Shown piece after piece: positions 60 to 11,460 of a stretch of DNA of 26,212 bases (within the stretch, counting starts at the first letter, position 1; each line of letters opens with the position of its first letter). Origin of the DNA: a virus; the IMG/VR virus record IMGVR_UViG_3300042482_000882, positions 1-26,212 of that record. One strand, 5' to 3'. The notes below the pieces were generated by a model. The model made no database searches. It was not told the origin of the DNA and saw only the letters and a program-made list of their open reading frames with translations. The position numbers and the translations under genes are program-made.

Positions 60-1079
60 CTAAACCCTCCACCAAGCCCGCCAGTCCGCCTTACGCGAAG
101 GCACCGCGTAGGTCTTGAGCACCAGCGCCGTCGAAGAATGCCCCATCTGATGCGCTGTTTTGCCAGCATCCTGGCACCGTCCGAGGTGGTAGGTAGCGAA
201 GGAGTGGCGGAGGGCATTTTCCGGCAGCATGGCCCACGGCACCACGCCCTCGTTGTTCAGCCGCTCGATCAAAGCCTCCCTCTCCCGATAAAGCCGGAGC
301 GATTTCGCCGGCACGATCAGCCCCGATTTTCCTTTGAAAAATTCCTTCCGCCTCGCCAGCGGCTCCGTGAAATCCACGATCCGCTCCGGCAGGCCCGAGC
401 TCTGTTTAGAAACCTCCCGCCGAACCTCAATCTGGCCGGTCTTGGGATCGACATCCTCCCACCGCATTCGATGGACCTCGATGGACCGCAGGCCCGCAAA
501 GGCACCGAGAAGAAACCAAGCGCGCAAAGCATCCGACATCTCCGCATCCAGAATCGACCGCAGTTCCTTCGCCGAGATCAGGGACCGTTTACTCTCAGCC
601 TCCGGCGCCACGACGCGGCGGAATGGATTTCGGTCTAGAAGCTCCATGTCGACGCACCACCGAAAGAACCCGGAGGCGTAACGATGCCACCCCGCCCGCG
701 TGGTCGGCGCGCCCTTAATCTTTCCAAAGACCCGAGCCGCCTGCATCGGCGACACCGCCGCCACCGCGCCAGGGAACGCAACCAAAAGCTCCCCGCATAT
801 TTTTTCCAGTTTCTCACGATGCCGCTCCGAAGCCCCCACCTTGCTCGCTATGTAATCCCGCACCGCCGACTTCATCGACATCCCCGAAGCCGACTGCTCC
901 AAGAGCGAATCCGTCCCACCCTTCTGAAGTTTCTCCAAAAGCCCCGGCCCCGCCGCCCAAGCCTCCGCCTCGGTGCGGTAAAACCGGCGGATCCTTTTGC
1001 CAAAAATTTTCTGTGGAATCGTCAACTTCCAAGGCGTCGAAGGGCGCTGCGGGTAGGGAGTGACAAGATAGGCGCTCAT
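60..1079 (-). CDS. int: Tyrosine recombinase (phage integrase)
   Basis: This is a 339-residue site-specific recombinase that would integrate and excise the phage at a tRNA gene. An N-terminal arm-binding region covers about residues 1-60, a SAM-like core-binding domain about 66-155 (ending RWCVDMELLDRNPF), and the catalytic domain about 165-335. Catalytic residues visible are R198 (AGLRSIE), K225, R291 in NALRHSFATY, H314 (MGHSS) and nucleophile Y324 (LKTYAVP). The usual first histidine of the HxxR box is N288, a variant seen in some integrases. The frame is open to 1121, but I chose the ATG at 1079. The longer start would place the three TGTTGCCC repeats (1084-1111) inside the gene, whereas they look like integrase arm sites. 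The gene sits beside the att core, as expected. No structure was recognised after the stop; positions 1-59 hold only a C-rich tract. Confidence 0.95.
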   Translation of the reverse strand: MSAYLVTPYPQRPSTPWKLTIPQKIFGKRIRRFYRTEAEAWAAGPGLLEKLQKGGTDSLLEQSASGMSMKSAVRDYIASKVGASERHREKLEKICGELLVAFPGAVAAVSPMQAARVFGKIKGAPTTRAGWHRYASGFFRWCVDMELLDRNPFRRVVAPEAESKRSLISAKELRSILDAEMSDALRAWFLLGAFAGLRSIEVHRMRWEDVDPKTGQIEVRREVSKQSSGLPERIVDFTEPLARRKEFFKGKSGLIVPAKSLRLYREREALIERLNNEGVVPWAMLPENALRHSFATYHLGRCQDAGKTAHQMGHSSTALVLKTYAVPSRKADWRAWWRV

Positions 1080-1083
1080 GGTC

Positions 1084-1111
1084 TGTTGCCCACTTGTTGC
1101 CCGTGTTGCCC
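1084..1111. promoter_or_regulatory. Three direct repeats, putative integrase arm-type sites
   Basis: The word TGTTGCCC occurs at 1084-1091, 1095-1102 and 1104-1111, all in the same orientation and spaced 11 and 9 bp. They lie immediately upstream of the integrase ATG and on one side of the tRNA-derived core at 1222-1277. Two more copies in the same orientation lie on the other side at 1314-1331. This is the arrangement of arm-type integrase binding sites in an attP, with the near set also placed for autoregulation of the integrase gene. The repeats are seen directly; the role is inferred. Confidence 0.7.
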
Positions 1112-1221
1112 GAAATCGCAACTATTTTCTTCCACTAGCCTCCACATCCCTCCCGTTGTTTCTGAAAGCCAACCACCCGCCAACCCGCATAAAACCTAGC
1201 CCAAATCGTCACAAGTCGCTC

Positions 1222-1277
1222 TGCCGGCGGCGGGACTCGAACCCGCACTCCGCTTTCGCGAAAACGGATTTTAAGTC
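1222..1277 (-). other. attP core: 3' fragment of tRNA-Leu(UAA)
   Basis: Read on the minus strand, this stretch matches the 3' part of a bacterial tRNA-Leu(UAA). It has the anticodon loop CTTAAAA, the 3' anticodon stem TCCGT, a long class II variable arm, the T arm (GCGGG, TTCGAGT, CCCGC), a 7-nt acceptor strand CGCCGGC and discriminator A. No CCA follows. The 5' half is absent: the bases before the loop (AGCGA) cannot pair with TCCGT. Phages that integrate into tRNA genes carry such a 3' fragment in attP to restore the gene. The predicted attB is therefore a host tRNA-Leu(UAA) gene. Confidence 0.85.
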
Positions 1278-1313
1278 GCTTTCTCGGGTTTGTTTTTCAA
1301 TGACTTGCGGGAG

Positions 1314-1331
1314 TGTTGCCCGTTGTTGCCC
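1314..1331. promoter_or_regulatory. Two direct repeats, putative second arm of attP
   Basis: TGTTGCCC occurs at 1314-1321 and 1324-1331, 10 bp apart and in the same orientation as the three copies at 1084-1111. The tRNA-derived core lies between the two groups. The last base overlaps the stop codon of the amidase gene. A single copy in the opposite orientation at 1460-1467 is inside the amidase coding sequence and is probably chance. Confidence 0.65.
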
Positions 1332-1939
1332 TAAAGGACTTTATTTAGAGCCGCGAGGAGGGCGGCGTGGGCGGCGGGGGAGCAGTCGTCTTTGCGGCCG
1401 GGGGCGATGTCGGCGTGGCGCAGGATGTTTGCGAGGGGGATGTGGTGTTCGCGGAGGATGGGCAACAAGTATTCCACGGCGCTGAGGAGGGCGTCTTCGC
1501 TGAGCGGAGTTTGATAGGTGTCTCCTTCCCAGGCCATGCCGACGCTGAATGAGTTGGCGTCTTTGCGACCTTGCCACGAGGAGACTCCGGCGTGCCAGGT
1601 TCGCTGGGTGGGGAGGGCGAGAGTCGTGCGTTTTCCGTTGCGGGCGATTATGCAGTGATACGAGACTTTGCTCACGGGGTCACAGCACCATGAGACGCTG
1701 CCCGCGTAGGCTCCGCTCGTGTGGTGCAAGATCACATGGGTGGGCTTGATGACGCGGCCCGCGCTGATGTTTGGGGTGCGCTTGTTCGTCTGCTGGTAAA
1801 ACTTCGGCTCGGGCTTGAGGGTGCCGGAGGTTTTGGCCGGGGAGGTTTTGGCGGGCTTCGCGGGCTTCGGCTCAGGCGCGGGCGCGGGGGATTGCGCCGG
1901 GCGTGGCAACATGAAGAAGCGGGCGAGGAGCGAAATCAT
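1331..1939 (-). CDS. N-acetylmuramoyl-L-alanine amidase (endolysin)
   Basis: This 202-residue lysis enzyme would cleave the amide bond between N-acetylmuramate and the peptide stem at the end of infection. The Amidase_2 (T7 lysozyme-like) domain covers about residues 65-200. Probable zinc ligands are H72 or H73 (ILHHTSG), H175 (LRHADIAPGRKDDCSP) and C186, with H116 also nearby. The N-terminus begins with a short hydrophobic stretch (residues 1-12), then a Pro/Ala/Lys-rich linker to about residue 45. It could be a weak signal anchor, but is too short to be sure. The ATG at 1939 overlaps the TGA of the upstream lipoprotein gene (ATGA), and a Shine-Dalgarno-like AAGGA lies 4 nt before the start. 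It is the last gene of the lysis cassette and abuts attP. Confidence 0.93.
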   Translation of the reverse strand: MISLLARFFMLPRPAQSPAPAPEPKPAKPAKTSPAKTSGTLKPEPKFYQQTNKRTPNISAGRVIKPTHVILHHTSGAYAGSVSWCCDPVSKVSYHCIIARNGKRTTLALPTQRTWHAGVSSWQGRKDANSFSVGMAWEGDTYQTPLSEDALLSAVEYLLPILREHHIPLANILRHADIAPGRKDDCSPAAHAALLAALNKVL

Positions 1940-2654: not shown

Positions 2655-5185
2655 TAGCTGTTAGCCTGGGCGATGAGATTTCCGACGATGGCCGTGGTAG
2701 CCACATTGGCGAGGCGCTCGGTGTTCAAGGCCGAAACTTTCGTGAGTTCGGTGCTTAACTCGGAACGCACGGCTGATGCCACGGTGGCCGCTGAGGGCGC
2801 TGCGACCCCGGCGATGGCGGCCTCGAGAAGGCTTTGGTCTGCGGGATCGCTCGGCAGCGCATCGGTCTTCGATTTGATCGCCGAAAGCTGGGTCGAGTTG
2901 CTATCGAGTTCTTGGCGAATCTCGATGGCGGTCGGGCCGCTGGCGCTGGTGAGCGTGCGGGCATTGTAGTCCCAGATGTCGGCGGGAGTGACTGATGCCG
3001 GCGCGTTCGTGAGGTTTGTCACCGTGGCAAGCGTGCCGGATGGCGAGAGTCTCGAAGACACCGAGGCATCCAGACGCCCGAGTTCTGTTGCGAGTTCAGT
3101 TCGCACAGCTCCGGCCACTGTTGAGGCTGATGGCGCCGAGGATGTCGGGATGCTGTCGATTTTTCCGCCGACGCGCTCGAGGTCGCTGCGGATGGCTGCG
3201 ACAAGCGAAACTTCCGAGAGGTTCTGGTTGCCGATCGCTCCCACGATTGCGTTGAGCACGGCTTGGCCGTCGCCTTCGTTGAGGAGCGAGCCTTCCACGG
3301 CGGCGCTGATCTGCGCGGTGGTGGGGATGTCGGAGACCGCTGCGGGCGAGGCCGGGAGGTTGTCGGTTTTGCTTTTGATCGCAGAGATGTCCGAGTTGGC
3401 TGGCGCGGTGTAAGAGGCCGAGGCCAGTCGGCTTGAAACGGAGGCGTCGAGATTGCTGAGTTCGGTCAGCTCGGCGCGAACGGCTGAAGCCACAGCGGCG
3501 GCTGTCGGGGCGCTGGTCGGGGCTGTGTAGGCTGCCGAGGCCAGTCGGCTAGAAACCGAGGCATCCAGATTAGAAAGCTCGGTCAGTTCGGTGCGAACGG
3601 CGGAGGCCACAGAGGCGGCACTAGGCACGCTCGGCAGGTCGCCGGTCGTGAGGGTTGAGCGGCTGGAGATCGTGGCGTCGAGGTTGGCGAGCTTGGTCGA
3701 GTTGGAATCCATTTCCTCACGGATTTGGACGACGCTGGGGATCGTGAGACCAAAGATGGCAGCTTCAACGAGGCTTTGGTCGGCGGGGTCGCTCGGCAAC
3801 GCATCGGTCTTGCTCTTGATGGCCGAGATGTCCGAGGTCGGGATGTCAGCGGCCACGGCGCGGGTGCTGGTGGCGACATCCAAGCGCGAAAGCTCGGTGG
3901 ATAGCTCCGTTCTCACCTGGCTGGCGATTTGGCTCGGCGTCGGCACGGTCGGCGCATTGGTAAGGGTTGTCGCGGTATCGACCAATCCGCCGGTGATGGT
4001 GCGCGTTGCAGCAGCCCAAACGGCATTTGCAACATCCGACGCACTTAGCGCCGCAGTGCCGACGGTATTATCGACGGGGACTCCCGTTGCCACGGTTGCA
4101 GGGCTTGGAACGGCGCAGGCGCCGGTCAACGCGCCGCTCGCGTAGCTCACGCCGAGGCGGACATTGCCGACCGCTGGCATTTCGCCTTGCGTTGCGTCCA
4201 CAAGTATTTTTGCAGCGCCGGAATCGACCCAGTTAAAAATCGCTTGATTCAGCGAGTTCCTTTTGAGGCGGACGAATCCGGTGACGGGTGACATCCCGCG
4301 CAGGCCATATTCTAACTCGCGGACCTCGACTACTCCTGCATTCCCACTATTGGCAATGCCGGTTGCCGCAGTGAGACCGACCGAGCCTAAGCCAAAGGCA
4401 TTCCCGACGGCGCGGGTGGCGGTGACAGACCCGCTGGACGCGTTTGTGACGCCAGGACCAGAGACACCGCCGGTTGCATTGCCGGTAATGGCAATAACTC
4501 CCCCAGCAGCATTATTTACGCCACTGCCACCTGATGCACTTCCGCCGGTTGCATTCCCGGTAATGTTGATCGTGCCGGTGGAAGCGTTTCCTACAGCGGG
4601 ACCGACTGCTCCGAGGCAGTTGCCCGTGATGTTGATCGTGCCGGCGCTGAAATTTTCAAGTGCATTGCCTCCAGCTCCGCCGCCGCCAGTAGCCGTGCCG
4701 ACAAAATTGATTGTTCCACCCCATACATTGCCAATCGCACCGCCTAAGCTTGAAGATTTCATATCCCCCGTTGCGTTGCCGGTAAAATTCAGCGTGCCAT
4801 TTCCCGTCAGGTTTACCGGGCGGCTGCCGCCACTCGTATTAACCGAGGTCACATTGCCGACAATCGAGGCGGAAAGCGGTGCGCTAAATGCGCAGTTGAC
4901 AACGTTCGCCACGCCGGATACATTATTTTGCAAAATGTTGGCGGTCAGAGTCAAGCCAGCGGCGAGGGTAAATGTGCCGCCTGCTGTGGCACCACCGAAA
5001 GTGTCGTTACGCAGTTGGCCGGAGCCTCCGAGGTTAGTATCGACATTGATCGCGATGGCAAATGAGTTTGAGACCAGGACATCGCCTGCGGCGAATGTGA
5101 CAGCCGATGCCGTGCCGCCGGGCGCGGTCGCCCAGACATCGGTGGCGTTGATGTTTCCTGCCTTGCGGGCGTAGTATGTAGGCAT
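2654..5185 (-). CDS. Large repetitive tail fibre or tail spike protein
   Basis: At 843 residues this is the largest fibre-type protein here. Residues about 60-270 are rich in Gly, Asn, Thr and Val with recurring NxTGNxTG turns (such as GTINITGNATGG), which suggests a beta-helix or beta-solenoid. Residues about 370-830 hold repeats of the type AVRTELTELSNLDASVSSRL, interspersed with DISAIKSKTDALPSDPADQS units, and look like a helical or trimeric shaft. An AAGGA lies about 10 nt before the ATG at 5185, one of the few Shine-Dalgarno sites in the window. It follows a 95-residue gene and precedes the lysis cassette, so it is the last structural gene. A receptor-binding or host-surface role is inferred; no enzymatic motif was seen. 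Confidence 0.8.
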   Translation of the reverse strand: MPTYYARKAGNINATDVWATAPGGTASAVTFAAGDVLVSNSFAIAINVDTNLGGSGQLRNDTFGGATAGGTFTLAAGLTLTANILQNNVSGVANVVNCAFSAPLSASIVGNVTSVNTSGGSRPVNLTGNGTLNFTGNATGDMKSSSLGGAIGNVWGGTINFVGTATGGGGAGGNALENFSAGTINITGNCLGAVGPAVGNASTGTINITGNATGGSASGGSGVNNAAGGVIAITGNATGGVSGPGVTNASSGSVTATRAVGNAFGLGSVGLTAATGIANSGNAGVVEVRELEYGLRGMSPVTGFVRLKRNSLNQAIFNWVDSGAAKILVDATQGEMPAVGNVRLGVSYASGALTGACAVPSPATVATGVPVDNTVGTAALSASDVANAVWAAATRTITGGLVDTATTLTNAPTVPTPSQIASQVRTELSTELSRLDVATSTRAVAADIPTSDISAIKSKTDALPSDPADQSLVEAAIFGLTIPSVVQIREEMDSNSTKLANLDATISSRSTLTTGDLPSVPSAASVASAVRTELTELSNLDASVSSRLASAAYTAPTSAPTAAAVASAVRAELTELSNLDASVSSRLASASYTAPANSDISAIKSKTDNLPASPAAVSDIPTTAQISAAVEGSLLNEGDGQAVLNAIVGAIGNQNLSEVSLVAAIRSDLERVGGKIDSIPTSSAPSASTVAGAVRTELATELGRLDASVSSRLSPSGTLATVTNLTNAPASVTPADIWDYNARTLTSASGPTAIEIRQELDSNSTQLSAIKSKTDALPSDPADQSLLEAAIAGVAAPSAATVASAVRSELSTELTKVSALNTERLANVATTAIVGNLIAQANS
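3417..3650 (-). repeat. 117-bp tandem repeat inside the fibre gene
   Basis: Two adjacent units begin at 3417 and 3534, each with GCCGAGGCCAGTCGG. They encode near-identical 39-residue blocks containing LTELSNLDASVSSRLASA, YTAP and AAVASAVR. The spacing is an exact multiple of three, so unit gain or loss would keep the frame and change fibre length. More diverged copies occur at about 2745-2830, 3050-3130 and 3860-3930. Confidence 0.75.
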
Positions 5186-6927: not shown

Positions 6928-7155
6928 TCAAAAAGTGCCGGCGTCGATGACGGGGATCATGAGGGCGTAGGCGCTCGCGGAGGGCGACCATCGGTAGGGC
7001 ATTCCCTCGTCAAGGGCCATGTAGAGGCGGTCGGTTTTTCCGATGCTCGGAAAGCTCGAGCGGCTCGGGTATTCGACGACGCTCGGCGGGAGGGTGAGTT
7101 CGAACGAGGAGAGGTCGAGCGTCTGCGTGAGGTTGCTTTCGGTGATTGTTGTCAT
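6928..7155 (-). CDS. Small tail-tip protein
   Basis: This 75-residue protein carries EYPSRSSFPSIGKTDRLYMA and LDEGMPYRWSPS. This short module (a FPSxG turn, then a LYxALD strand and a YRW strand) is frequent in phage tail and fibre proteins. Its ATG overlaps the stop of the 543-residue fibre gene (ATGA), so it is probably translated by reinitiation and made with it. Its stop lies inside TTTTTGACAAT, one of the junction words. It may be an adaptor or trimerisation module; the function is not certain. Confidence 0.75.
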   Translation of the reverse strand: MTTITESNLTQTLDLSSFELTLPPSVVEYPSRSSFPSIGKTDRLYMALDEGMPYRWSPSASAYALMIPVIDAGTF

Positions 7156-8783
7156 GCGAATGCAAGGGTCTCCCGGTTAGCCCACGATCCGGTGGCGGAG
7201 GCGGTGGCGAGGATTTGGCCGGCGGCGTTGAGGGTGGATCGCTTGACGGTCCAGCTTGTGGCGGTCTCGGGGAGTGCTGGCGCGGCTGGGCGGTCGGCAT
7301 TGAGGAGGCGACCGCTGTAGGTCGTGAGGCCGTCCGCGCTGATGTCGAAGGCGTAGAGGTAAAGCGTCGGATCGATTGGCGGCTGGACGGTGCGGAGGCC
7401 TAGGGCGGTGCAGGAGATTTGCATTCCGGCGCTCGGGGCGGTGTCGAAGGTGATCGTGCCGGTGGCTTCCGAAACGAGGTAGTCGGTGCCGGGGGTTTGC
7501 GTGACGCCGTTGAGGGCGACGAGGACATGCTCGGGGTCGGAGCTGACGAGGCCGTCGATCAAGAAGGTGGTGGCAACGCCGTTGCCGATGCGGACGGTGG
7601 TGTTGATCGAGAGGCCGGGGGCCGAGGCGATGATGTAGGACGAAAGGCCAGTGATCTCGGTGGCGGCGTGGGTGTGGACCGTGTCGGCTTTTGAAAGATC
7701 GACCCAGAGCTTGAATGCGGGGGAGGCGGAGGGATCGAAGGCGGCCCAGTAGCTGCCGGGCGGTGGATATCCGGGGTTCGGCTCTCCGATGCGGATGTAG
7801 AGTTCGCCGTTGTGGCTGACGACTTGGCCGGGGAAATAGTCCGCGCCGTTGTTGTAGGCTCCTTGGTAGTCTACTGGCTCGGGTTGGAGGGCGGTGTCGG
7901 CGAGAGCGCCCTGTGCGGAGGTGGCTTTGCCGTCTATCTGGGTTTGCAGGCTCCCGATGCTGGCGGCGGCTTCGGCGATGGAATCCAGCGCGGCAGGATC
8001 AAGGTTCGCGGCGAGGTAGTCGATTCTCTGGCCGAGGGCTGTGTCTGCGCTGGCAAGGTCGGCGAGGTCGGCAGGCAGGCCGGTGATCTCGCTCTTGAGG
8101 TGGGTGTGCGCGGAAGGAGTGAAGGTCGTTGGCTTGCCGGTCAGGCTGGACCAATCGACGGGCGGGGAGACGGCGACGACGGCGCTTGCAAAGTCGGTGA
8201 TCTGCGATGCGGTGTGCGTGTGGCTGCTCGGCGGGAAGGTGGCAGGCTTGTTGAGGACGCTGTCCCAGGTCGGCGGCGGGGCGAGCTGCGCGATGGCTTG
8301 GGCCGTTCGGAGCGGGGTCATCCATTTCGCGTTATCGGTGCCTGCGGTGGCTTCGGCTTGGGTCGCCTTGCCGTCGGGGAGCGCGGCGGGGGTGGCTTCG
8401 TCGCCGAGGATGACGGAGTTTTGAACTTCGACTTGGAGCGTGGCGGTGCGCAATGCCTGGCTCGGTGCGGTCCAGCGGATCTCGAGGAAGGCGCTGATGC
8501 TGGCAGGATCGGAGGAGAAGGCGGCCTCGACCGGGACGGTGTTGAGATCAAGGATGGTTTGGCCGGGGGCCGCCAAAGCGAGAAAGTTAGAGTCGGAGAA
8601 GGAGGACTTGAGGGCGATGGTGGTCTGGGTGCCTGCGGGGGGATCGACGGCCACGCCGTTTTCGACAAAGACGACCTCGATGGGGACTTGGTCGCGGCGT
8701 TTTAGGACGAGCGTCTGCAATGCGACATTGCTCGCGGCGGACTTAACGAATCGCCGGTTTTTTGAATCGAGGAAGAGTTTCAT
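7152..8783 (-). CDS. Tail fibre protein, paralogue A
   Basis: This 543-residue protein is a clear paralogue of the 10435-11460 product. Both start with a beta-rich domain (KRRD, PxEVxF, PASIxAxLE, a Trp, then VIxGDE) and continue with an ATQAEAxAGxDNxKWMxPLR type linker at about residues 155-180. This linker is well known from phage tail fibres. Next come repeated collar units of the DLTxKPxTFxPSxHTH type and a helical stretch. A beta-rich C-terminal domain with FDISADGLTTY and SATGSWANRETLAF matches the end of the 126-residue protein at 5494. It probably forms side fibres that touch the host surface. A 6-bp hairpin lies directly before the ATG, and a TTTGACAC word lies 27 nt upstream. Confidence 0.88.
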   Translation of the reverse strand: MKLFLDSKNRRFVKSAASNVALQTLVLKRRDQVPIEVVFVENGVAVDPPAGTQTTIALKSSFSDSNFLALAAPGQTILDLNTVPVEAAFSSDPASISAFLEIRWTAPSQALRTATLQVEVQNSVILGDEATPAALPDGKATQAEATAGTDNAKWMTPLRTAQAIAQLAPPPTWDSVLNKPATFPPSSHTHTASQITDFASAVVAVSPPVDWSSLTGKPTTFTPSAHTHLKSEITGLPADLADLASADTALGQRIDYLAANLDPAALDSIAEAAASIGSLQTQIDGKATSAQGALADTALQPEPVDYQGAYNNGADYFPGQVVSHNGELYIRIGEPNPGYPPPGSYWAAFDPSASPAFKLWVDLSKADTVHTHAATEITGLSSYIIASAPGLSINTTVRIGNGVATTFLIDGLVSSDPEHVLVALNGVTQTPGTDYLVSEATGTITFDTAPSAGMQISCTALGLRTVQPPIDPTLYLYAFDISADGLTTYSGRLLNADRPAAPALPETATSWTVKRSTLNAAGQILATASATGSWANRETLAFA

Positions 8784-8800
8784 GCCGCTGACCCAGCGGC
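8784..8800 (-). promoter_or_regulatory. Hairpin touching the start codon of fibre A
   Basis: The arms GCCGCT and AGCGGC around a GGGTC loop end exactly at the ATG of the 543-residue fibre gene. Upstream lie TTTGACAC (8803-8810) and the dispersed repeat (8856-8882). A hairpin flush against a start codon could control ribosome access. The structure is seen; the role is inferred. Confidence 0.5.
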
Positions 8801-8855
8801 GGGTGTCAAATCGAGCGACTCTCCGAGTCTTTACTGAAGCGGCTCGGAGGGGTTG

Positions 8856-8882
8856 ACCACAGAGGACACAGAGGACACGGAG
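8856..8882. repeat. Dispersed CACAGAGGACACAGAG-type repeat, copy 1
   Basis: The plus strand reads ACCACAGAGGACACAGAGG and continues ACACGGAG. Such 9-bp periodic repeats are scattered between genes in many Verrucomicrobiota, Planctomycetota and related genomes. Related copies here are at 19337-19372 and 23569-23605. An additional inverted repeat (CTCCGAG at 8821-8827, CTCGGAG at 8843-8849) lies between this copy and the fibre gene. Confidence 0.7.
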
Positions 8883-8928
8883 CGACTAGGTCCAAAAAAC
8901 GCTGCCGGAAAAGGAGAGTGCGGCAAGG

Positions 8929-9048
8929 CTATTGACCTGTGCAGTCGCCAAGGTTGGCGAGGTCGAGCTGCCCCCAGTCGCGTGGAACCCATTTCCACTT
9001 CGGTCTTCCCATCGCCGGACGGGGGAGGAATTCGTCAGCCTGGCACAT
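8929..9048 (-). CDS. Possible 39-residue protein after the adhesin gene
   Basis: A short frame starts at an ATG overlapping the end of the adhesin gene in another frame and ends at a TAG. The predicted product (MCQADEFLPRPAMGRPKWKW, then VPRDWGQLDLANLGDCTGQ) has three Trp residues and two Cys, and looks more protein-like than shadow frames. It may be a real short gene, or the remnant of an adhesin C-terminus disrupted by a frameshift. There is no Shine-Dalgarno site. Support is weak. Confidence 0.3.
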   Translation of the reverse strand: MCQADEFLPRPAMGRPKWKWVPRDWGQLDLANLGDCTGQ

Positions 9049-10438
9049 TCCAAAGCAGTTGCGGGCCGTAATAGACCGCCTTGGCTTCGGTATAGCCTGC
9101 GTAGACGGCGGCAACACGGGGAGCGCCGTAGTTAAAGGCAGAGCTTACCAACAAAGAAATTGTTTCCGTTGAAGTCCCCCCTGGCCCGCTGGCTGTGATC
9201 GTGACGGTGAAGGGTCCCTCGGTGGTGGCTAGCCCGGAGATGAGACCTGTTGAGGCATTTATGCTTAACCCCTCCGGCAGACCGCTGGCTGACCATGCTG
9301 TGATTTGTCGATTCAAGCCATCTGCCAAAACAGAAGGTGTTCCGCTGAAATTTGCGTTTGCAGTTAGACTGAAATTTTGACCCGCAATAATTTCAGGGGC
9401 GTAATAGGTAACTTCTGAAATCGTGCTTTTGTAAACTTCTACAGCTTTTGAGCTAGGTGTCGGCCAAATATCAAAAGCGAGGTATTCAGCCCCCGCCGAA
9501 ATATCACCTTCTTCCCCAAAATAACCGGTAAAGCCAGAGGGGGGCGGAATCTCAATCCTGTTTAATTTTTCCCACTTTTCGCCCCATGAAAATGTGTCCA
9601 CATAAAACGAATTGCGGTGAATGAGAATTGTCCCGTCCGCAGATAACGATATTTCAGATTGGGTTTGGGGCTGGAGAAAATTGATAGTGCTGCCGACTTG
9701 AGTCCATGCTCCAGAGATTAAATCGTAGGTTCGGATTGTATTTAAACCCATCGCCACAACTCGCGTTCCAGAGTTGTTTATTTTAACCGAATAAAGTGTC
9801 GAGTCTGGCAGAGTGATGTTTGCGCCAACTCGGACAGCTCCCGACCCTGAGACGCCTTGAAAAACGGCAATCGTCTTTTGAGAATTAAAGCTTCCAAATA
9901 CAACGCAATACAATCCGTTTCTGGACAAAGAACAATCGCCCGCAAAATCTATATTGAAATTGTTATATGTTTTTGAAGAAATAAATTGAGTTGGACTTCC
10001 GCTGCTTATCTGCCCCCATTTTATATATTTATAATTGTATGAAACGGCCTGAGATGTTTGCCCCTGCGCATGTGCAGAATAAGCAAGATACCTGTCGCTA
10101 GTCGCATCGAACCCGTAAACAAGATCGTTATTGGTCGATGCGGTGAATGTATAGAGTTGACCTGAGACACTTATGTAAATGCCAGCATGTATCCGGTAAG
10201 CGTAATTACTAGACCCTATTTCTAGGCATTTTACAAAAGTTGCGCCAGAAGAGTTTACCGTTTGCTGTAATTGCGAGGTAAAGGTCGGCTGACTAAAAGT
10301 CCATCTCTTATATATATTTGGTGTAGAATATGCAAGATCCCCGAAGGACGAAACCCGCAAACTATTAAACTGTTCAAAATCCGAGGCTGAGATTGCCCCG
10401 AGTCGGCTCCACCCGACTTGCTTAAGCGTCACGCTCAT
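9035..10438 (-). CDS. Putative tail adhesin: propeller-like region plus Ig-like (He_PIG) domain
   Basis: This 467-residue protein starts at the ATG overlapping the stop of the upstream fibre gene (ATGA). Residues about 160-310 hold beta-propeller-like blades with recurring SLSxNGxYC, KINNSGTRVVAMGLNTIRTY and SLSADGTILIHR patterns. Residues about 350-430 look like a putative Ig / He_PIG domain: ASGLPEGLSINASTGLISGL followed by PFTVTITASGPGGTSTETIS. The last 25 residues repeat a Y-x-G pattern (VYAGYTEAKAVYYGPQLLW) seen at the ends of some phage tail proteins. The coding DNA is visibly more AT-rich than the flanking fibre genes, which suggests recent exchange. A receptor-binding role is inferred; it might also be a decoration or tail-tip protein. 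Confidence 0.8.
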   Translation of the reverse strand: MSVTLKQVGWSRLGAISASDFEQFNSLRVSSFGDLAYSTPNIYKRWTFSQPTFTSQLQQTVNSSGATFVKCLEIGSSNYAYRIHAGIYISVSGQLYTFTASTNNDLVYGFDATSDRYLAYSAHAQGQTSQAVSYNYKYIKWGQISSGSPTQFISSKTYNNFNIDFAGDCSLSRNGLYCVVFGSFNSQKTIAVFQGVSGSGAVRVGANITLPDSTLYSVKINNSGTRVVAMGLNTIRTYDLISGAWTQVGSTINFLQPQTQSEISLSADGTILIHRNSFYVDTFSWGEKWEKLNRIEIPPPSGFTGYFGEEGDISAGAEYLAFDIWPTPSSKAVEVYKSTISEVTYYAPEIIAGQNFSLTANANFSGTPSVLADGLNRQITAWSASGLPEGLSINASTGLISGLATTEGPFTVTITASGPGGTSTETISLLVSSAFNYGAPRVAAVYAGYTEAKAVYYGPQLLWNVPG

Positions 10439-11460
10439 GCTGTGACAATATAGAGCGTCGTGGCGCTGGGCGAAGCTGGCATGGTGGCGACGACGGCGAT
10501 GGCGGTGATGCCCCCCGTAATAGTCAAAAGCCGCGAGTCGTTGCCTTGGCAGAAGGTCCCGGCAGTCGTCCCAAAAGTGTGCGTGTGGTCTCCAAGTGCC
10601 ACCGTGCTGGATGTTGTGCCGGTCGGGATGCGGGCGAGGGCGAGCGTGCCGCTGGTGATGTCGGCGGCGGCGTGGGTGTGGGTAGACGGCGGGAAGGTGC
10701 TGGGGATATCGGTGAGGTCTTCGTAGCTGGTGACGCCGCCGCCGCTTGGCGTCTGCGGCACCCACGCGGTGCCGTTCCATGTGACGACTTGGCCGCTCGT
10801 GGCGCTCGATTGCGTGAGGGCTGAGAGCGGGTGCGTGTGAGTCGATGGCGGGAATGTGGAGGGCTTGTCGGTCAGGTCATTCCATGACGAGACGCCTCCG
10901 CCGCCGCCGAGCTCTTCGATGGCTTGGGCCACGCGCAAGGGCGACATCCACTTTGTATTGTCAGACCCGGCTTCGGCTTCGGCCTGGGTGGCGAGGAAAT
11001 TGGATGTCTCGCTGGTGTAAAAGAGCGGCAAGTCGGCTGGCGCGCCTTCGTCGCCGCGAATGACATCGTTGAAGATCGTGATCGGGAGCGTTAGCGAGGA
11101 TCCGACGGAGGTGCCACTCATCCATTGCACCTCGAGCATGGCGGTGATGCTGGCCGGTTCTGTAGGGAAAAGGGCCTCGAGTGCCGTGGTGTTGAGGTTA
11201 AATGCTCCACGGTAAACGGTGTCCGCGCCTGTGCCAGTGACTGAGAGCGTGTCGGTGGCAAGAAACTCCCCGGCGAAATCCGCCGAGGCCTTCACGCCCA
11301 CGCGGGCGATCGTGCCGACGGGCAGCGACTGGACGGCCCCGGCGCGCAGGAACTGCACCTCGAAAGCGTCGTTGTCTCGCCGTTTGAATTCCAGACGGGT
11401 GGCAGGGCGGGTGGCAGTGGTGAGAATCCGCCGCGTGTCGATGTCGATGTAGATGCGCAT
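10435..11460 (-). CDS. Tail fibre protein, paralogue B
   Basis: This 341-residue protein is a paralogue of the 7152-8783 fibre. The N-terminal domain runs to about residue 145 (LEFKRRDNDAFEVQFLRAG, PASITAMLEVQW, VIRGDEGAPADLP), followed by ATQAEAEAGSDNTKWMSPLR. Two collar units, WNDLTDKPSTFPPSTHTH and YEDLTDIPSTFPPSTHTH, come next, then a short Thr/Gly-rich end finishing ATTLYIVTA. It lacks the long C-terminal region of paralogue A; instead the AT-rich adhesin gene overlaps its stop, as if the distal tip were encoded separately. The start at 11460 lies 26 nt after a TTTGACAC word. Confidence 0.87.
   Translation of the reverse strand: MRIYIDIDTRRILTTATRPATRLEFKRRDNDAFEVQFLRAGAVQSLPVGTIARVGVKASADFAGEFLATDTLSVTGTGADTVYRGAFNLNTTALEALFPTEPASITAMLEVQWMSGTSVGSSLTLPITIFNDVIRGDEGAPADLPLFYTSETSNFLATQAEAEAGSDNTKWMSPLRVAQAIEELGGGGGVSSWNDLTDKPSTFPPSTHTHPLSALTQSSATSGQVVTWNGTAWVPQTPSGGGVTSYEDLTDIPSTFPPSTHTHAAADITSGTLALARIPTGTTSSTVALGDHTHTFGTTAGTFCQGNDSRLLTITGGITAIAVVATMPASPSATTLYIVTA

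Follow-up and report, generated by a model that had tools for sequence, protein, structure and literature searches.

The stretch of DNA analysed here, in the following called the window, comprises 26,212 nucleotides of a viral IMG/VR record (Table 1). All of its recognisable phage genes, as judged from profile and PHROG matches, are encoded on the minus strand and form a series that runs from the terminase at the right end through the portal, tape measure and tail proteins to an amidase, a putative phage attachment site (attP) and an integrase. The amidase matches PF01510 (E 7.3e-20) as well as PHROG lysis families. Proteins encoded in the tail region (window positions 7152–11460) show many matches to repeat-type PHROG tail-fibre families and to a putative Ig domain (He_PIG). 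At its left edge the window ends 59 bp past the integrase stop codon; a C-rich run (CCGCCCCGCCCCCCCC) at positions 1–20, about 60 bp after this stop, opens the contig and may be an assembly break point. Neither a direct terminal repeat of the window nor a complete tRNA gene inside it was found.

Table 1. Features of the window and of its putative attP; the arm-type sites are predictions.
Feature	Position	Strand	Description
Window	1–26,212		IMG/VR record IMGVR_UViG_3300042482_000882
Tyrosine integrase gene	60–1121	-	ORF of 353 aa from TTG
Integrase-side arm-type site 3	1084–1091	-	GGGCAACA; optional third copy; predicted
Integrase-side arm-type site 2	1095–1102	-	GGGCAACA; predicted
Integrase-side arm-type site 1	1104–1111	-	GGGCAACA; 9 bp from site 2; predicted
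attP core	1222–1277	-	56-bp 3' part of tRNA-Leu(UAA), GACTTAAAATCC...CCGCCGGCA
Anticodon loop CTTAAAA	1269–1275	-	Putative strand-exchange (overlap) region
Lysis-side arm-type site, inner	1314–1321	-	GGGCAACA; predicted
Lysis-side arm-type site, outer	1324–1331	-	GGGCAACA; predicted; one-base overlap with the amidase stop codon
Amidase gene	1331–1939	-	N-acetylmuramoyl-L-alanine amidase (endolysin); phage flank of attP

The core starts within the 5' anticodon stem of the tRNA, of which it includes the final 2 bp, runs to the discriminator base and is accompanied by five copies of the octamer TGTTGCCC (plus strand), which reads GGGCAACA on the minus, coding strand, all in a single orientation. 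On both strands of the whole window this octamer occurs seven times, compared with 0.94 expected and a maximum of four in 100 shuffles. When positions 1050–1360 were shuffled with dinucleotides preserved (n=2000), the top 8-mer reached three copies once and never five; among the other 311-bp stretches scanned, none contained five copies of one 8-mer. The integrase-side trio stops 4 bp ahead of the probable integrase start codon, the ATG at 1079–1077, from which a protein of 339 aa is encoded; in relatives with a different spacing of the third repeat, the frame upstream of this ATG is interrupted. If the TTG start were used, the integrase-side repeats would be in frame, and they were thus also considered as coding sequence. 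This reading was rejected because in relatives the spacing of the third copy shifts by non-multiples of three and the downstream ATG is kept. Terminator-like matches such as that at 1105–1122 were no more numerous than expected by chance. A first-pass annotation of this DNA had described a 3' fragment of tRNA-Leu(UAA) as the core, with lysis and integrase genes on either side, and a repeat present three times on the integrase side and twice on the lysis side in the same orientation. Core, loop and all five copies are found exactly as described (Table 1), and the flanking genes are confirmed as an amidase and a tyrosine integrase. The "3+2" arrangement proposed in the same annotation is exact for the window and its clade, whereas the family-wide constant is, on comparison of the relatives, 2+2 with an optional third integrase-side copy, since this copy is the least conserved of the five.

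The integrase matches PF00589 (E 3.2e-06, above the cut-off) and the integrase family PHROG 1 (E 1.9e-28). The best structural matches of its model are lambda Int and Tn1549 Int (Z 15.4–15.8, about residues 66–331 of the model), and the matched region corresponds to the core-binding and catalytic domains of the lambda-Int type. For the N-terminal domain, two strands and a helix are modelled within residues 5–54 at low confidence (pLDDT 50–67), and full-length lambda Int aligns to the model from residue 17 or 30. Arm-binding domains are a hallmark of the tyrosine recombinases of mobile elements (PMC8138268). The catalytic residues R198, K225, R291 and Y324 are invariant in the aligned family, the HxxR motif reads NxxR (N288) in all of its members, and the GH-box H is missing in two relatives (L143, L144). 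Three other relatives (L246, L260, L263) carry an inserted gene for a 67-aa HTH_17 protein resembling Xis; this gene separates the arm repeats from the integrase, lies about 200 bp upstream of int and overlaps the int start. The genome G020 carries another small HTH gene behind int (L180:1346–1579).

The arrangement of core and repeats is shared by a large set of relatives. In IMG/VR, 64 distinct loci are related to the integrase, and the core is carried by 68 viral contigs, nearly all of which share the repeats and their register; in nearly all contigs that reach far enough, the repeats lie at offsets of -56, -46, +164, +173 and about +184 from the core. Conservation in the region, compared across 49 distinct sequences, peaks at the core and the arms and the spacers vary. 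Across the 104 distinct integrases scored, with identities as low as about 46%, the two pairs are always 219–222 bp apart, although the spacers no longer align. Within the pairs the spacing is 10 bp on the lysis side and 9 bp on the integrase side, with slightly different pair spacing in some variants (L299–L306, L317–L337). Distinct clades use distinct arm words, namely GGGCAACA, GGGTAACA, GGACAACA, TGGCACAA, TGCCACAA and TGGCACT. Nearly all copies within one attP agree, and the occasional one- or two-base deviations are found mostly in the lysis-side copies. When placed on the integrase tree, the arm words require three changes, which is the minimum, compared with a mean of 11.6 after shuffling. 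The strict spacing and the concerted variation of repeat word and integrase clade support the idea that the repeats behave as arm-type sites of the integrase. One clade contains both GGGC and GGGT words, and the four residues that separate the two groups all fall within residues 7–31 of Int, a clustering with a chance probability of 0.0016 given the variable columns. The separation is, however, a single evolutionary event. As the arm sites adjoin the N-terminal codons and the two could be exchanged together by phage recombination, linkage could contribute to this association. The N-terminal focus is not repeated for TGGCACAA and TGCCACAA, since here the 16 fixed differences are distributed along the whole integrase, with 6 of them in the first 62 residues.

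The repeats could instead serve as operators for a different regulator, such as an excisionase or an int repressor, as they abut the int start codon and as the HTH_17 gene of L246, L260 and L263 lies directly behind them. We consider this unlikely: the repeats stand on both sides of the core, and their fixed spacing of 219–222 bp is kept where no HTH gene is present at this position. Moreover, the repeat word follows the integrase clade, with the residues that separate GGGC from GGGT located in the N-terminal domain, and in integrated relatives a repeat pair always precedes the integrase. Recognition of the repeats by Int itself is the reading retained below.

Several lines of evidence bear on whether the stretch is an attP or, alternatively, the attL or attR of an integrated prophage, or a joint of two neighbouring elements, on a chromosomal contig. 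Because the left end lies only 59 bp past the integrase stop, the window alone cannot show what follows the integrase, and the local sequence would be no different in tandem prophages. However, in longer relatives phage genes are present on both sides of the attP, with the integrase beside the core, and the sequence past the integrase encodes an HTH_17 protein, a Sak4-like annealing protein, an exonuclease, DNA methyltransferases and a DnaB helicase, followed by the terminase. Two relatives have overlapping ends of 221 and 290 bp (96–97% identity); the map therefore closes on itself and includes the attP, as expected of a genome that is excised, circularised or concatemeric. Both arm pairs are present in the window and its core comes without the 5' half of the tRNA, whereas the attL sites of relatives consist of a whole tRNA and only one pair. 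A search of viral contigs for a host-tRNA junction, that is, the 5' half together with the anticodon region, gave none for the window's core, in a database whose provirus trimming could hide some junctions. The 15 matches that this search returned were rejected: all are whole tRNA-Leu genes carried by phages, their acceptor stems differ, and no such integrase accompanies them. A chromosomal junction is thus very improbable, and the first-pass assignment to attP rather than attL or attR is borne out by relatives in which the sequence beyond the position of the window's left edge encodes phage rather than host genes.

Two side observations concern the organisation of these related genomes. In L005 (positions 3345–4790) and similarly in L007, L011, L019, L020, L022 and L036, about 1.4 kb of extra genes, one with a weak metallophosphoesterase match, are located between the amidase and the attP, and this interval is likely a cargo site in part of the relatives. 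In the 44.5-kb genome G030 (IMGVR_UViG_3300027736_000079), positions 1–2628 are repeated close to the other end, at 36621–39274, with 93–95% identity, as would arise if two related genomes had been merged or if a circular genome had been read beyond its starting point.

Integrated relatives are found in bacterial genomes of the hosts' order, in which integrases with 38–57% identity lie directly behind whole tRNA genes for Ser(CGA), Leu(UAA), Leu(UAG), Arg(UCU) or Arg(ACG). The layout is always the same: the tRNA is followed by 108–131 bp, one direct-repeat pair and the integrase start, and the lysis-side pair is absent at the tRNA junction. This layout is the attL expected from the attP of the window. 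The integrated relatives are known from the attL side only; a search for the attR of the prophage in G039 with exact 20–25-mers of its tRNA-Ser core did not locate another copy in the roughly 66 kb that follow on the prophage side. A single verrucomicrobial MAG (G227) encodes six integrase relatives (L372, L374–L378), five of which are each located directly behind a different whole tRNA (Ser-CGA, Leu-UAA, Leu-UAG, Arg-UCU and Arg-ACG) with a repeat pair of their own.

The tRNA genes of prospective hosts were sought with a 53-base core pattern, with N at the variable positions, in bacterial contigs. All 12 matching contigs belong to Verrucomicrobiota MAGs, labelled mostly as Spartobacteria, Chthoniobacter or Terrimicrobiaceae, and each contains a complete tRNA-Leu(UAA). 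The first-pass annotation had proposed to look for a complete host tRNA-Leu(UAA) whose 3' part equals 1222–1277; complete genes with a matching 3' part are present in 12 MAGs, but a host genome with exactly the 56-bp core of the window is not contained in the collection. The host genes compared differ from the window core at 1–7 of the 56 positions, with a single mismatch in the nearest (L073, L074 and L077) and seven in L071 and L078, whose sequence is identical to an alternative core allele of the relatives. When the 5' half of the host gene was joined in silico to the window core, a tRNA-Leu(UAA) was called in five of five hosts, and no tRNA was called in the reciprocal joint (attR) or in the attP itself. 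The sequence of the long variable arm varies between the core alleles and its pairing is preserved, and a third allele (CCCTT, for example in L028 and L055) matches the anticodon stem of hosts L074 and L077. Therefore, a phage seems to be matched to the tRNA version of its host lineage. More broadly, as seen at L018, L028, L071, L074 and other phage and host loci, the attP cores occur as several alleles with compensated changes in the variable arm and anticodon stem, and each is identical or close to the tRNA-Leu(UAA) gene of particular hosts. That the locus is a decayed, non-functional relic, a tRNA fragment and repeats left by an old insertion, is very improbable: a lysogen of the window phage with both attL and attR was not found, but the core and arms are the most conserved parts of the 49 distinct sequences among variable spacers, the core alleles keep their variable-arm and anticodon-stem pairing, and the integrase frame is open in full-length relatives.

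Taken as a whole, positions 1084–1331 are very probably the intact attP of a temperate, tailed freshwater phage of Verrucomicrobiota of the Chthoniobacterales/Terrimicrobiaceae type. The sequence basis of this proposal comprises the core, the repeats, the flanking genes, the conservation in the family, the host genes, the regenerated tRNA and the integrated relatives; binding, the position of the crossover and autoregulation are the parts that we infer. Int is probably an arm-binding tyrosine recombinase of the lambda-Int kind, the N-terminal domain of which would occupy the direct repeats. It would bridge the arm repeats to the core and capture the tRNA-Leu(UAA) gene of the host, and strand exchange would take place between the anticodon-loop segment and the same segment of this gene. 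The crossover is placed here because identity with the host tRNA starts 2 bp ahead of the anticodon loop and because GA-CT(T/C)(A/G)AAA-TC is common to the family attPs of tRNA-Leu(UAA), tRNA-Leu(CAA) and tRNA-Ser(CGA); an anticodon-centred crossover is one of the known classes (PMC4383910). The 3' part contributed by the phage would complete the host tRNA gene on the integrase side, forming attL, and the displaced host 3' part would join the lysis-side pair, forming attR. After integration, the integrase gene would lie behind the tRNA, share its orientation and have arm sites 4–32 bp before its start codon, an arrangement from which we suggest that Int probably represses its own gene. As no sigma-70 promoter was recognised by consensus over the arms, this suggestion draws on analogy with intS of KplE1, where Int represses its own promoter in a tRNA-to-int locus of the same direction (PMC2951348).

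The tRNA attP of the window is of a well-known, ordinary kind. Similarities to the lambda system include a tyrosine integrase with N-terminal, core-binding and catalytic domains, although the first of these is poorly modelled in the window's protein, arm-type sites, predicted ones in the window, on both sides of the core within an attP of about 250 bp, and a gene order of head, tail, attP, int and early genes. The attB of lambda is intergenic and its arms include inverted sites. In contrast, the core of the window is part of a tRNA gene, and its five arms are without exception direct repeats, arranged as evenly spaced pairs; the identity to lambda Int in the structural alignment is about 15%. 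The intS/attL locus of KplE1 (CPS-53) at argW likewise combines a tRNA attB with a downstream int in the same direction and arm-type sites at the int promoter (PMC2951348). It differs in tRNA, host and arm word, and negative autoregulation has been shown for KplE1 whereas it is proposed by analogy for the window. In Islander-type islands and prophages of the 'A' subsite, with a crossover centred on the anticodon, the attP likewise includes everything from the anticodon loop to the 3' end of the tRNA, and the gene is restored on integration (PMC4383910); there is no difference in principle, and the window is an example from an uncultured verrucomicrobial phage. The closest isolates are the Akkermansia phages Chantilly and Moulinsart, which are also Verrucomicrobiota phages with a tyrosine integrase. 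Their integrases are only 23–24% identical to that of the window, and no isolate phage closer than 24% in integrase was present in the phage collection searched.

The useful outcome is a natural series of integrases and arm sites that is both large and regular. For these uncultured freshwater phages, the attP fixes the lifestyle, the insertion site and the probable host group, and the core allele, through its version of the anticodon stem and variable arm, hints at the host lineage that could be lysogenised without damage to the tRNA. The series comprises at least six arm words on one scaffold of two pairs about 220 bp apart and a tRNA core, with further words beside integrated copies. It is possible, albeit a tentative proposal, that in this verrucomicrobial family arm-binding domains and arm words form a naturally matched series with a readable code, in which residues near the Int N-terminus, at aligned positions 7, 9, 24 and 31 of the window's protein, would set base 4 of the arm. 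If so, new pairs of arm domain and arm word would be predictable from sequence, and with matched Int N-termini and arm words on a constant scaffold, such an arm-recognition code could be tested by swapping natural parts.
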